Virus record (IMG/VR): IMGVR_UViG_3300021961_000044
Coordinates: 28,987 to 92,986 of that record
Length of the DNA stretch: 64,000 bases
Source of the DNA: a virus
Reading direction: 5' to 3' (one strand)
Made by a program: the position numbers and the translations under genes. The notes beneath the pieces were generated by a model. The model searched no databases. It was given only the letters and a program-made list of their open reading frames with translations, and was not told the origin of the DNA. Positions 2,820-43,661 of the stretch are shown here, piece by piece; position 1 is the first letter of the stretch; each line of letters opens with the position of its first letter.

Positions 2820-3268
2820 AAATGACTAAAAAATTCAACAAACTAAACGACTCCTTTGGAATTGAAGAAAATTCTATAGTTCCAGAAGTAGAGTCTGCTC
2901 CTATTGAGATTATTAACGATGATTCTGATGAAGAATTTGAAAAAACACCAGAGGTAAGAAAAGATTATAAGTATACAAGAAATCAATTATATTCATTAAT
3001 AGAAAAAGGACAAGATGCTATTAACGGTATCTTGGAATTGGCAGCAGAAACAGAACAACCAAGAGCATATGAAGTTGCAGCGCAATTGATTAAAAACGTT
3101 GCAGATACTACTGACAAGTTGATGGATTTGCAGAAAAAATTAAAAGAGGTAGAAGAAGATACCAAACCAAAAGGTCCAACAAACGTAACTAATGCTTTGT
3201 TTGTTGGGTCAACTGCAGATTTGGCAAAACTTTTAAAGAACAAGCAACAAGAAGAGGATACTAAATAA
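2816..3268 (+). CDS. gp16: Terminase small subunit gp16
   Basis: This 150-residue acidic protein has a central helical segment (residues about 50-110, YTRNQLYSLIEKGQDAINGI) characteristic of gp16. gp16 assembles as a ring that recognises concatemeric DNA and stimulates the gp17 packaging motor. T4 gp16 is 164 residues. It overlaps gp15 by four bases (ATGA). In T4 the large subunit gene 17 follows directly, whereas here about 10.8 kb of structural genes intervene. Confidence 0.85.
   Translation: MKMTKKFNKLNDSFGIEENSIVPEVESAPIEIINDDSDEEFEKTPEVRKDYKYTRNQLYSLIEKGQDAINGILELAAETEQPRAYEVAAQLIKNVADTTDKLMDLQKKLKEVEEDTKPKGPTNVTNALFVGSTADLAKLLKNKQQEEDTK
3261..3267 (+). promoter_or_regulatory. Late-type promoter box (CTAAATA) before 3292
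   Basis: CTAAATA overlaps the last codons of gp16 and sits 24 bases before the next start. The same heptamer precedes gp20, gp3 and the genes at 51969 and 52957, so I read it as a variant of the T4-like late box. Confidence 0.35.
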
Positions 3269-3291
3269 TAGTAAGAATATAAAAAGTTAAA

Positions 3292-3627
3292 ATGTCCGTT
3301 GCCGCAGTAAACATAAGAATTGAAAAAGGCACTGATTTTGAATCAACTTTTACAGTCAATTCTACAGATGGATCTGCTTTCAATCTATCAAATTATAGTG
3401 CTACTGCAAAAATTAGGAAACATCCTAATGCTGGAACCGCAAAAACTTTTTCAACAACAATTACTTCATCTACGGGTGAAATAAAAATAACAATGAGTGA
3501 TACAGATACCTCTGATTTATCATCTGGAAGAAATTACTATGATGTAGTTATTCAACATTCATCTACAGAGAAGAAAACAAAAGTATTTGAAGGAATGGCA
3601 ATAGTATCGGATACCGTTTCCGTATAG
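3292..3627 (+). CDS. Small structural protein, possible baseplate/fibre adaptor
   Basis: A 111-residue protein rich in Ser, Thr and alternating hydrophobic residues, predicted from composition to be all beta. The layout (IRIEKGTDFESTF near the start, SNYSATAKIRKH in the middle, YYDVVIQ near the end) resembles the small immunoglobulin-like N-terminal domains of phage upper-baseplate proteins. It begins a run of fibre-like genes between gp16 and gp17 and carries its own late-type box. Virion location is an inference from context; no enzyme motif is visible. Confidence 0.65.
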   Translation: MSVAAVNIRIEKGTDFESTFTVNSTDGSAFNLSNYSATAKIRKHPNAGTAKTFSTTITSSTGEIKITMSDTDTSDLSSGRNYYDVVIQHSSTEKKTKVFEGMAIVSDTVSV

Positions 3628-3631
3628 TAAA

Positions 3632-3949
3632 ATGGAATTTAAAGTAACTCTGGTAACAGGACAAAATTACAGTGTTCGTCTTAAAGAAGACAATAAATTC
3701 AAAGTAATTTCAAATCTTACGCAGGCAGCAGAAGTGGCTAATTTTTCAGATTTAGGAGATTTTGACAATACTGGTGTTCAGGACGGATGGGTTCTGATGT
3801 ACGACTCTGCAACTGGAAAAATTAAAACAGTTAATCCAGATCTCGTGTTCAGTAAAGCTGTTGCGGATAACAGTCTTCCTAGTGAGTTTATTGATCAATT
3901 GGATGGAGATCTTGATGATAAGATCGATCTTGATGCGGGCTCTTTTTAG
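3632..3949 (+). CDS. Conserved cyanophage structural protein
   Basis: This 105-residue protein has a motif describing a beta hairpin (WVLMYDSATGKIKTVNPD) and ends KIDLDAGSF. Proteins with the same middle and end accompany fibre genes in many marine T4-like phages, but I know no assigned function. The terminus resembles that of the next protein (IDGGSF), suggesting a shared assembly tag. It lies four bases after the preceding gene and is probably co-transcribed with it. Confidence 0.65.
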   Translation: MEFKVTLVTGQNYSVRLKEDNKFKVISNLTQAAEVANFSDLGDFDNTGVQDGWVLMYDSATGKIKTVNPDLVFSKAVADNSLPSEFIDQLDGDLDDKIDLDAGSF

Positions 3950-3955
3950 AAAAAT

Positions 3956-3963
3956 TATAAATA
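3956..3963 (+). promoter_or_regulatory. Late promoter TATAAATA before fibre gene 3997
   Basis: An exact TATAAATA, the T4 late promoter consensus read by gp55-programmed RNA polymerase, lies 33 bases upstream of the fibre-like gene at 3997 in a non-coding gap. Confidence 0.65.
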
Positions 3964-3996
3964 ATTACACTAAAAATATAATAAGGTATAATTAAG

Positions 3997-6087
3997 ATGC
4001 CTGCACCTGTAATTCAATTTAAAAGGGGCAATTTAAGCAATCTTCCTGGTTTACAGGCTGGTGAACCCGCATTTACAACTGATACGTTCGACCTGTTTGT
4101 TGGATTATCTTCAACCACTGATGCCAATAAGTTTTTTGGTTCTCATAGATATTGGAATAAAGAATCTACAACTTCTGGAAGTTCAGTAAATTTAGTCGAA
4201 GGAACTTCCAACGGTTCCAGTTATATCAGTTTAAAATCTCCAGATTCTCTTGCTGGCGTCACTACATATACTCTTCCAGCAGTTCCAGTTAATGGATATT
4301 TTCTGAAAACAAACGCAGATGGAGAATTGTCTTGGGGACAAGCTGCGTCTTTTGCTGGAATCGTAACCTTTACCGATACTACAGAAAATACCTTAGGAAA
4401 TGCGGACACTGGTGCTGTTCAAATTGATGGTGGACTGGGAGTTAATAAAAACGTTACTGTTGGTGGAAATTTAAACGTACAAGGATATTCTGAGTTTGTT
4501 GGTGTTGTAACATTCCAAGGTGGAACCATTAATCTTGGAGATTCTGATGCAGATGATATCAATGTTGCTGGTGAATTTGTATCCAACTTAATTCCAAATG
4601 CCACAGCTGAATATGATTTGGGAAATGGTGATAAGAAATGGAGAAGTTTAAATGTCTCTGGATTCTGCACAAGTGGTGGGTTAAGAGTTGCTGGTCCTGC
4701 ACAAGTTGGATCTTTAACAGTCGATTCTGATTTAAATGTAATTGGCAATGTAACTATTGGCGGTACATCTTTAAGTGTTTCCGCACAGTCTCTTGTAATT
4801 CGTGATCCTGACATTGTTCTTGGATATAGAACAGATGGTAGCAATAACGATATTTCTACTGACACTACTGCCAATCATGGTGGTATCGCAATTGCATCTA
4901 CAGAAGGATATCCTTTAGTAGATTTAGTAATTGCTGGAGTTGAAACATCTCCAGTAACTTATAAGAAATTGATGTGGTTTAAATCAGAGTCTTTCTCTGG
5001 TTTAGGCACAGATGCATGGTTATCAAACTATGCTATTGGTATTGGAAGCACACAGTTCCCAACAGGAACAAGATTAGCTGCTGGAAATGTTCAGTTTACT
5101 CAAGAAGATTTATCAGTTGTAAGAAATATCAATGCTTCTGGTGTTGGTACATTTGCTGGCGCACTTTACGTTGCAGGACTCGAAATTAGTGGTGGCGCTT
5201 CTATTGGAGAAGATATTAGAACAAGAAACTTAGATGTATCTGGAATTACAACGTTAGGTAATACAAGTACAGATATAGTTCAAATTTATGGTGATGCTAA
5301 TTTTATTGCTTCTGTTCAAGCAGTAAACATCAATTCAAGTGGAATTGTAACTGCTACTACTTTTGATGGTAATTTAGCGCTTTCAAATGTTACTGGTCTT
5401 GGTGCTAATGTTTCTACATTCTTAGCAACTCCTTCCTCCGCAAACTTAGCAGCTGCAGTAACAGATGAAACTGGCACTGGTGCTCTCGTATTTGCAAACA
5501 GTCCAACATTAATAACTCCTGCTCTTGGAGATGCATCTGCTACTACATTAACTACAAGTGGCGATGTAATAGTTGGAACCGCCATGAGCGCTCCAACTGT
5601 AAGAACAGCAACGATTACTCATTCTAACGGTACTAATGCTGCTACAATTGATTCTAGTGGAAATTTAACTGCATCTCAAAATTTAACAGTTACAGGAAAC
5701 CTGTATGTTAATGGATCAACCACTCAAGTAAATACTTCTTCGATGACCGTCGAAGACAGAACAATTGAGTTAGGTTTGGTAGATGGTTCTGCTCCTTCAT
5801 CAGCAACTACTTGGGACCTTGGTGTTCTCTTCAATTATAATTCTTCAGGTGCTAAGAAGTCTGCTGTTCTTTGGGAACATGCTGATGGAAGATTTAAGTT
5901 TGGATCACAAGTAAGCGATGGTGGAGGAACTGATAACGATAGTCCACAAATTACCGTTTCTAACTATGCTGCGATTGAAGTAAGTTCAATTTGGATTAAT
6001 GATTGTGCTGGACAATCACAATTAATTGATTGTTCTGGAGGAGTGAGAACACTTCAAAACATAACTATCGATGGCGGTTCGTTCTGA
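3997..6087 (+). CDS. Tail-fibre-like structural protein
   Basis: A 696-residue Gly/Ser/Thr/Val-rich protein. Residues 5-40 (IQFKRGNLSNLPGLQAGEPA, then FDLFVGL) form the short RG...GE...VG motif seen at the N-terminus of many phage fibres and tropism-determinant-like proteins. The body contains repeated beta-strand units (VTVGGNLNVQG, LTVDSDLNVIGNVTIGG). A domain at about residues 251-340 recurs at about 562-660; both have a GxxT/S stretch, an acidic D-(R/P)-x-I core and a later W. The C-terminus is ITIDGGSF. The gene has its own late promoter and a strong terminator after it. Fibre or baseplate-attached role is inferred. Confidence 0.72.
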   Translation: MPAPVIQFKRGNLSNLPGLQAGEPAFTTDTFDLFVGLSSTTDANKFFGSHRYWNKESTTSGSSVNLVEGTSNGSSYISLKSPDSLAGVTTYTLPAVPVNGYFLKTNADGELSWGQAASFAGIVTFTDTTENTLGNADTGAVQIDGGLGVNKNVTVGGNLNVQGYSEFVGVVTFQGGTINLGDSDADDINVAGEFVSNLIPNATAEYDLGNGDKKWRSLNVSGFCTSGGLRVAGPAQVGSLTVDSDLNVIGNVTIGGTSLSVSAQSLVIRDPDIVLGYRTDGSNNDISTDTTANHGGIAIASTEGYPLVDLVIAGVETSPVTYKKLMWFKSESFSGLGTDAWLSNYAIGIGSTQFPTGTRLAAGNVQFTQEDLSVVRNINASGVGTFAGALYVAGLEISGGASIGEDIRTRNLDVSGITTLGNTSTDIVQIYGDANFIASVQAVNINSSGIVTATTFDGNLALSNVTGLGANVSTFLATPSSANLAAAVTDETGTGALVFANSPTLITPALGDASATTLTTSGDVIVGTAMSAPTVRTATITHSNGTNAATIDSSGNLTASQNLTVTGNLYVNGSTTQVNTSSMTVEDRTIELGLVDGSAPSSATTWDLGVLFNYNSSGAKKSAVLWEHADGRFKFGSQVSDGGGTDNDSPQITVSNYAAIEVSSIWINDCAGQSQLIDCSGGVRTLQNITIDGGSF

Positions 6088-42868: not shown

Positions 42869-43303
42869 ATGACTAACCTCGCACGATACACTGCGGCAGA
42901 TCTTCCTGCGCTTATTGACCGTATAAATAAGTATAGTATTGGAATGGATGAGACGTTCGATAGACTCTTCAGAACTCACCAGACCGAATCGAATTATCCT
43001 CCATACAATCTAGTTCAGGTCAGTAGCAGCGAATCCAGACTTGAACTTGCACTAGCAGGATTTAAAAAGGAAGAAGTCAATGTCTACACACAAGACGGAA
43101 AACTTTTTGTCGAAGGACAAAAAGGCAATGATGACTCAAGCACAAATTATATCCATAGAGGAGTGGCTCAACGAAGTTTTACGCGAGCATGGACCCTTAG
43201 TGACGAAACAGAAGTTAGATCAGTTACTTTCGAGGATGGGCTTCTAGCAGTATCTTTGGGAAAGGTCGTGCCAGACCACCACCAAAGGAAAGATTGGTTT
43301 TGA
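42869..43303 (+). CDS. hsp20: Small heat shock protein Hsp20
   Basis: A 144-residue alpha-crystallin-type chaperone. The fold runs from YPPYNLVQV (about 44) through LELALAGFKKEEVNVYTQDG and LFVEGQK to the conserved RSFTRAWTLSDETEV and FEDGLLAVSL strand. Such proteins hold unfolding proteins and are part of the cyanomyovirus core gene set. A clear AAAGGAG ribosome site lies 7 bases before ATG. It stands as its own unit between a terminator upstream and a non-coding region downstream. Confidence 0.92.
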   Translation: MTNLARYTAADLPALIDRINKYSIGMDETFDRLFRTHQTESNYPPYNLVQVSSSESRLELALAGFKKEEVNVYTQDGKLFVEGQKGNDDSSTNYIHRGVAQRSFTRAWTLSDETEVRSVTFEDGLLAVSLGKVVPDHHQRKDWF

Positions 43304-43406
43304 TTTGATAACATTTTCTTTATAATTCAGTATCATAAAATACAAAAATGTTTGTTGTGATACATTATGATATAGATAATTATGTACTCAATGGAGGCTT
43401 ACTATT
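43304..43406 (+). other. Non-coding gap with weak promoter-like elements
   Basis: This AT-rich gap holds TTGTTG (43352-43357) and GATAAT (43375-43380) at 17-base spacing, a moderate match to a host promoter, and a GGAGG ribosome site at 43393-43397 for the micro gene at 43407. Confidence 0.4.
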
Positions 43407-43490
43407 ATGAACTTCACAGTACCAACAGTAATTATTGGATCGACTCTTTCTCTTTTTAGTTGGTTGGTCCTTCCCTCCGTCATTCCCTAA
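43407..43490 (+). CDS. Micro membrane protein (27 residues)
   Basis: A 27-residue product, MNFTVPTVIIGSTLSLFSWL then VLPSVIP, with a strong GGAGG site ten bases before ATG. Nearly the whole chain is hydrophobic and can form one membrane helix. The size and hydrophobicity resemble small subunits of photosynthetic complexes, but I cannot match it to any. The good ribosome site and an upstream promoter-like pair argue for real translation. Confidence 0.45.
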   Translation: MNFTVPTVIIGSTLSLFSWLVLPSVIP

Positions 43491-43500
43491 CCCACCACCT

Positions 43501-43578
43501 ATGGAAATCATCGCAACATTCGCACTACTCGGTTCTGCTATCTTCGGAGCATATAAATTAACTCCTAAAATCAAATAA
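43501..43578 (+). CDS. Micro membrane protein (25 residues)
   Basis: A 25-residue product, MEIIATFALLGSAIFGAYKL then TPKIK, ten bases after the previous micro gene. A single hydrophobic helix followed by a basic end fits a membrane peptide with the C-terminus in the cytoplasm. No family recognised. The ribosome site is poor (ACCACCT region), so it may depend on translation of its neighbour. Confidence 0.4.
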   Translation: MEIIATFALLGSAIFGAYKLTPKIK

Positions 43579-43609
43579 ATAAAACTGAATATCGTCGGCG
43601 CAATGCCAC

Positions 43610-43650
43610 GAGGGGTAACTGGCAAAATCCAGTTGACACCCCTCTTTTTT
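43610..43650 (+). terminator. Terminator overlapping the next promoter
   Basis: GAGGGGT-AACTGG pairs with CCAGTT-(GAC)-ACCCCTC, with a three-base bulge and a CAAAAT loop, followed by six T. It ends transcription of the micro genes. Confidence 0.8.
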
Positions 43651-43661
43651 ATTGTTAGAAT
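43633..43661 (+). promoter_or_regulatory. Sigma-70-type promoter before 43681
   Basis: TTGACA (43633-43638) and TAGAAT (43656-43661) have 17-base spacing. The -35 box lies within the 3' arm of the terminator. The predicted start, near 43668, is before the ATG at 43681. Confidence 0.8.

Follow-up and report, generated by a model that had tools for sequence, protein, structure and literature searches.

Do two very short open reading frames (ORFs), set one behind the other between an Hsp20 gene and a terminator, encode two separate micro membrane proteins, or parts of a single product? The question is raised by a 64,000-nt stretch of DNA (the window) that belongs to a 92,986-base virus record. 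The surrounding genes are those of a T4-like cyanophage, including a clamp loader, a RegA-like repressor, Hsp20, a DNA polymerase and a UvsX-like recombinase, as named in part from matched records. ORF A (43407..43490, + strand, with its TAA at 43488-43490) specifies a 27-residue hydrophobic product in frame 0, MNFTVPTVIIGSTLSLFSWLVLPSVIP, and is preceded by a GGAGG Shine-Dalgarno (SD) site at 43393..43397 (+). ORF B (43501..43578, +) specifies 25 residues, MEIIATFALLGSAIFGAYKLTPKIK, with the motif GAYKLTPK, and has no SD site before it in the window. Hsp20 lies upstream (42869-43303, including the stop, which ends at 43303); the downstream boundary is formed by a hairpin that resembles a strong terminator (43610-43644). 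The best 19-residue Kyte-Doolittle means, 1.96 for A and 1.55 for B, mark both products as hydrophobic. These coordinates and values bear out an earlier sequence-only reading of the locus, which had described 27- and 25-residue hydrophobic products, a strong GGAGG site on the first frame and a position between Hsp20 and a terminator. The examined 2.2 kb overlaps 44 ORFs of 20 aa or more, so that length by itself says nothing for A or B; the evidence is their conservation.

Distribution and regulatory surroundings

An Hsp20 search yielded 80 viral-contig loci, which together with three named phages and the window make up 84 loci with Hsp20 on the forward strand. (Viral-contig loci overlap and contain repeats; counts refer to distinct sequences where possible.) A 27-codon A-like ORF lies downstream of Hsp20 in 50 of the 84 and is absent from 34. 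Among the loci listed that lack A and B, the Hsp20 stop mostly abuts the terminator element. Because the two meet almost directly where A and B are missing, the pair looks like an accessory insertion, as far as gene order can tell. A scan of viral contigs with a B alignment located relatives of B at 60 loci, and a corresponding scan with an A alignment gave 169 relatives, of which the best 80 were taken. Conservation of the frames in relatives, which the sequence-only reading had set as its own test, was thus found for both ORFs.

The length of A is also constant. A set of 225 sequences, with one copy of the window left out, contains 176 A genes (106 distinct), and all 176 have exactly 27 codons under a motif that demanded LF at codons 16-17. 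To avoid this LF bias, we also ran a leader-only scan (palindrome, GGAG and ATG) that is blind to coding sequence. It returned at least 155 distinct sites with an ORF of at least 12 codons, and 145 of the 155 listed have 27 codons; of 192 further entries without such an ORF, nearly all of those listed lie on the opposite strand of the palindrome or in cut contigs. One locus (L053, after position 947) carries a shortened A (MNFTTAVLP) from which the shift site discussed below and the middle of the gene are lost.

Among named isolates, a DNA search of a phage collection matched the micro-ORFs to S-B43, S-B05, RB11-B, RN05-S and S-SCSM2R, and none of these five has an annotated feature under the match. 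Peptide searches for named isolates were insensitive with such short queries; it was the DNA search that gave S-SCSM2R and the S-B43 group. In S-SCSM2R (L001, locus 3203-4753), a gene annotated as NdhD, a host-like gene, sits in the spot downstream of A. Searches of six proteins at E up to 10, limited by the short queries, gave a best E of 0.091 in Pfam, below the cut-off, and a best E of 0.28 in PHROGs, with none informative. A scan of bacterial and archaeal genomes returned 67 pattern matches and no confirmed relative. The small photosystem and cytochrome b6f subunits PsbT, PetN, PetL and PsaM resemble A and B in size and in having one hydrophobic helix; no match of A or B to such a family appeared in Pfam, PHROGs or the genome scan. 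The suggestion that the peptides tune photosynthetic complexes is therefore unsupported. We found no report of the A/B gene pair in open-licence papers.

The leader of A contains what looks like an operator. In most relatives, the palindrome TGTATCA-N3-TGATACA is found some 55-60 nt ahead of A, frequently joined by a third half-site farther upstream (for example L086:1430-1500; the corresponding window leader is 43329-43386). Of 95 distinct A genes that had been retrieved without this pattern, 87 have the exact palindrome in their leader; the palindrome occurs once per locus in the loci checked, and also precedes a locus with B only (L066). The window retains the right half, TGATACA (43358..43364, +), with a degenerate left half, and the full palindrome was not found in the window at up to two mismatches. 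A site for NtcA was considered and rejected: the consensus spacing, as given in PMC3037559, is GTA-N8-TAC, and the leader has GTA-N9-TAC, one base too long. By eye, TATAGATA (43371..43378, +) resembles a -10 or late-promoter box, and relatives have TATATAAT, CTAAATA or TATAAATA there. An SD-like sequence precedes A in 135 of 137 distinct genes.

Next to the coding interval lies a composite element (43575..43661, +) that we read as regulatory, with a putative promoter. It comprises ATAAATA (43575-43581, +), GAATATCGTCG (43587-43597, +) and, in the 3' arm of the terminator hairpin, TTGACA (43633-43638, +), 17 bp ahead of TAGAAT (43656-43661), so that some bases seem to serve both the terminator and an early promoter. 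The DNA search matched 300 phage records; 55 of the 60 matches listed cover the composite element only, and some lie elsewhere in the genome, for example near hli and psbA genes in ACG-2014d. An RNA family was rejected as an account of this element, since Rfam gave no match there at gathering score and only chance-level matches below it.

Coding constraint in two frames

If A and B were ordinary, independent tandem micro membrane proteins, each would be read in one frame. Several observations agree with this: each ORF occurs alone (B without A at loci L061 and L066, A without B at many loci), and the B motif is conserved among relatives as GAY.LTPK. To see which frames of A are under constraint, we counted changes by codon position, using parsimony on trees from short alignments (40 nt of leader plus A), with events taken as independent; genes with less than 40 nt of leader are excluded from the 137-gene set. 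Across 93 distinct genes, changes at positions 1/2/3 number 79/32/180 over codons 2-14, 2/0/3 over codons 15-17 and 114/42/99 over codons 18-27. By these counts, codons 2-14 evolve like ordinary frame-0 codons, and the frame-0 constraint here, which in some relatives described below continues later, also speaks for independent genes. The nine columns of codons 15-17 are nearly frozen, with 5 changes in total versus 291 over codons 2-14 and 255 over codons 18-27. Past codon 17, position 1 rises and position 3 falls, as dual coding predicts, since a base at position 1 in frame 0 is a third position in +1.

This signature differs between classes of genes. In the long class (77 of the 137 distinct genes), the counts move from 46/20/121 to 84/35/64 past the site (Fisher p = 2e-7), and in the ten genes with AUU at codon 16 from 4/0/12 to 7/3/1 (p = 0.008). 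In the short class, 49 genes with a three-residue extension, they are 56/22/93 and 52/18/73 (p = 0.54), with no signature of dual coding and with frame-0 constraint in the later codons as well. The short class therefore counts against a uniform dual-coding reading, though it keeps both the shift site and an open +1 frame.

The +1 frame is open throughout. None of the 145 genes among the leader-scan matches listed has a +1 stop in codons 17-27; codon usage predicts one in about one fifth of genes, and the observed number is 0 of 94. Over codons 18-27 there are no +1 stops in the 77 long or the 49 short genes, compared with averages of 28.6 and 24.2 in shuffles of frame-0 codon order, of which 10 of 500 (long) and 2 of 500 (short) gave as few. 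Under codon-order shuffling, +1 pN/pS did not stand out. In the long class, openness of frame 0 over the same codons does not reach significance by itself (as low in 357 of 1000 shuffles), so that a frame-0 product past the site is less supported there than the +1 product.

The window's own clade comprises five distinct sequences (the window, L210, L271, L354 and L296) in which the +1 frame continues directly into ORF B. Another short +1 end, in L294 (S-SCSM2R type), falls outside this clade. Over codons 18-27, pairs within the clade differ at 2 to 5 bases, with L271 identical to L354. None of the ten pairs differs in a +1 residue, the sequence being LVGWSFPPSFPNPPPM in all; each of the nine differing pairs has 1-4 residue changes in frame 0. 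By this comparison, the constrained protein in the clade is the +1 product. Together with the long-class shift in codon positions and the lack of +1 stops, it marks codons 18-27 (43458..43487, +) as a stretch that is probably coding in both frames.

Constraint on the +1 frame does not end with the stop of A. The +1-only extension, NPPP in the window (43489..43500, +) and in frame with B, corresponds in the long class to N(G/S/A/P)PP..., mostly ending in TTP or TTL, and in the short class to (D/N)T(S/C) followed by a stop. Among 51 distinct sequences, extension lengths are 36, 42, 45, 48 and 51 nt, all multiples of three. In the three larger length groups, variable columns are mostly third positions (9 of 14, 11 of 20 and 12 of 22), and +1 pN/pS is 0.20, 0.19 and 0.37, with values of at least 0.62 in the other two frames; 0, 0 and 5 of 300 column shuffles were as low. 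All 137 genes retain the frame-0 stop at codon 28; among long-class genes it rests on the +1 codon being CCT (75 of 77) or TCT (2 of 77), with no other ending. Long-class +1 ends are TAATG overlapping the ATG of B in 29 of 77, TAAATA in 37 and others in 11.

These results make it unlikely that A and B are independent genes. In the long class as in the window clade, +1 coding extends from codon 18 past the stop of A, and B, which lacks an SD site here, begins in many relatives exactly where the +1 frame stops (the 29 TAATG cases). Of the two tandem micro proteins described by the sequence-only reading, the conservation of both frames stands; their independence probably does not, since +1 constraint from codon 18 joins A to B in the window clade.

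Alternatively, as known from Listeria phage PSA, the +1 shift could take place at the stop of A itself, a shifty CCC_UAA or CCC_UGA, and the long product would consist of all 27 residues followed by the extension. The codon before the stop is CCC in 57 of 68 long-class and 14 of 28 short genes, CCC is otherwise a minor proline codon (12 of 115 in ten genes of the window), and the extension follows the stop directly. CCC_UAA was our first model, dropped because +1 constraint begins at codon 18 and not at the stop: the +1 frame is open and constrained ten codons ahead of it, and the window clade varies in frame 0 and not in +1. Moreover, CTC, TCC, ACC, ACA, CCA and TCA also precede the stop, and the prevalence of CCC follows from constraint of the +1 frame to P-N (CCT AAT). 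We consider a shift at the stop very unlikely.

The proposed shift site

Constraint in two frames could be brought about by a ribosomal shift at codons 15-17, where the window has UCU_CUU_UUU (43449..43457, +) and relatives mostly have ACU_CUU_UUU. Among the 137 distinct genes, these codons read ACTCTTTTT in 86, TCTCTTTTT in 24, ACTCTTTTC in 15, ACTATTTTT in 10, and ACCCTTTTT and TCTCTCTTT in one each, so that 125 of 137 share (A/T)CTCTTTT(T/C). CUU_U is present in 126, AUU_U in 10 and CUC_U in 1. CTTTT also occurs in 95 of 95 genes not fetched via the leader pattern, most of which had passed the LF motif. According to PMC5009743, the release factor 2 shift takes place at a conserved CUU_U, which outperformed all other strings of a substitution series by a wide margin. 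Thus, the shift-prone string of a +1 programmed frameshift is found here. The window has a second CUU_U at codon 14, where the +1 frame is open too.

Base pairing makes AUU_U a poor string for a +1 shift, and the ten genes that carry it would thus use a -2 shift on UUU or none. If tRNA-Phe slipped by -2 on UUU, the same frame would be reached, which would fit these genes; at the sequence level such a slip is equivalent to a +1 shift.

No stimulator or slow A-site codon accompanies the string. An internal SD at the spacing of release factor 2 is present in 0 of 137 genes, and the A-site codon is UUU or UUC, neither a stop nor an evident slow codon. RNA structure was rejected as a stimulator: folds of 21 thinned long-class genes show nothing consistent, and 14 of the 21, tested against shuffles, have no significant structure past the site (z +0.8 to -2.5). 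Some known programmed frameshifts need no stimulator, and its absence accordingly lowers the standing of A among programmed frameshifts rather than excluding it.

Two further routes to a second product bypass the ribosomal shift. The +1 frame might be translated from its own start codon within A, and an ATG, GTG or TTG does occur somewhere in the open +1 stretch of 49 of 68 long-class genes. These candidate starts are spread over three codon indices and are lacking in 19 of the 68 genes; no +1 start is conserved, and the frozen codons 15-17 would be left unexplained, which makes this route highly improbable. Alternatively, RNA polymerase could slip on the T run (as in ACTCTTTTT), given a site made of pyrimidines whose last 4 to 8 bases are T. 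In many members the T stretch is no longer than 4 (ACTCTTTTC, 15 of 137) or 5 bases, and the runs at which bacterial polymerase is known to slip are longer. We find slippage by the polymerase scarcely credible. A ribosomal shift is the reading under which a frozen site joins two conserved coding frames without a second start, a combination found in the long class and the window clade; the short class has only the site and the open frame.

A candidate recoded microgene and known systems

Based upon these comparisons, A and B are probably one small gene decoded in two frames through programmed frameshifting, with a net +1 shift at CUU_U. Ribosomes would start at ATG 43407 and read 16 codons in frame 0. 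At (A/U)CU_CUU_UU(U/C), the peptidyl-tRNA(Leu) on CUU would most likely move forward by one base to pair with UUU, taking a fraction of the ribosomes into the +1 frame; the unshifted ones would stop at the conserved codon 28 and release the 27-residue peptide. We infer the shift, its +1 direction (-2 leads to the same frame) and its efficiency. The shifted product would have the same first 16 residues and a different C-terminus, with about 40 residues in most long-class relatives (three products worked out have 40-41). In the window clade the +1 frame is fused to ORF B and would give a 56-residue protein, MNFTVPTVIIGSTLSL-LVGWSFPPSFPNPPPMEIIATFALLGSAIFGAYKLTPKIK (43407-43454 joined to 43456-43578 with one base skipped, +), that has two hydrophobic segments. 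In many relatives B is a separate ORF, and in the 29 of the long class with a +1 end in TAATG a shift would deliver ribosomes to the start of B.

Hydropathy suggests that the products insert into a membrane. As to their role, we can only guess that one membrane peptide is made with two different C-termini, in a set ratio and with B as its partner, in the host membrane during infection.

The fuller proposition is a 27-codon, dual-coded phage microgene in which a +1 (or -2) shift, at a sense string without stop codon, SD or RNA-structure stimulator, switches the C-terminus of a membrane peptide, with fusion to B in some lineages and coupling with B in others. We consider the case for it evenly balanced. 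If true, such a recoded gene would be among the smallest known, programmed frameshifting would extend to phage micro membrane proteins, and the shift site would be either self-sufficient or aided by a factor present at infection time. Gene finders would overlook A and B twice, for their small size and for the change of frame. With its nine almost unchanging bases and no visible stimulator, the site would offer a simple natural test of +1 shift efficiency, and the two products a concrete, testable peptide pair in marine viruses.

How does this gene compare with known recoding systems? The frameshift of phage tail-assembly chaperones is usually -1. In that system, as proposed for A and B, a conserved recoding event joins two neighbouring ORFs in tailed phages, according to PMC10885494; A and B differ from it in gene, place and size. 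Like prfB, the release factor 2 gene, as described in PMC5009743, A has CUU_U near its 5' end, and it would likewise have a short frame-0 product and a long +1 product. It differs from prfB in having neither an in-frame stop right after CUU, in the A site, nor an SD-like string just upstream. A is moreover a phage microgene of 27 codons, its frame-0 stop comes 11 codons past the last codon of the site, and the overlap is probably dual-coding. Listeria phage PSA, in the same paper (PMC5009743), uses +1 frameshifts in tsh (CCC_UGA) and cps (ACA_CCC) to produce alternative C-termini, and A would resemble it as a phage gene with a +1 shift and an alternative C-terminus. The PSA genes encode capsid and tail proteins and slip on a proline codon, whereas A would slip on Leu CUU and is not a known structural gene. 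Thus, programmed +1 frameshifting itself is already known, with release factor 2 and Listeria phage PSA as the nearest cases, and A appears to differ from them in gene, size, shift context and dual coding.
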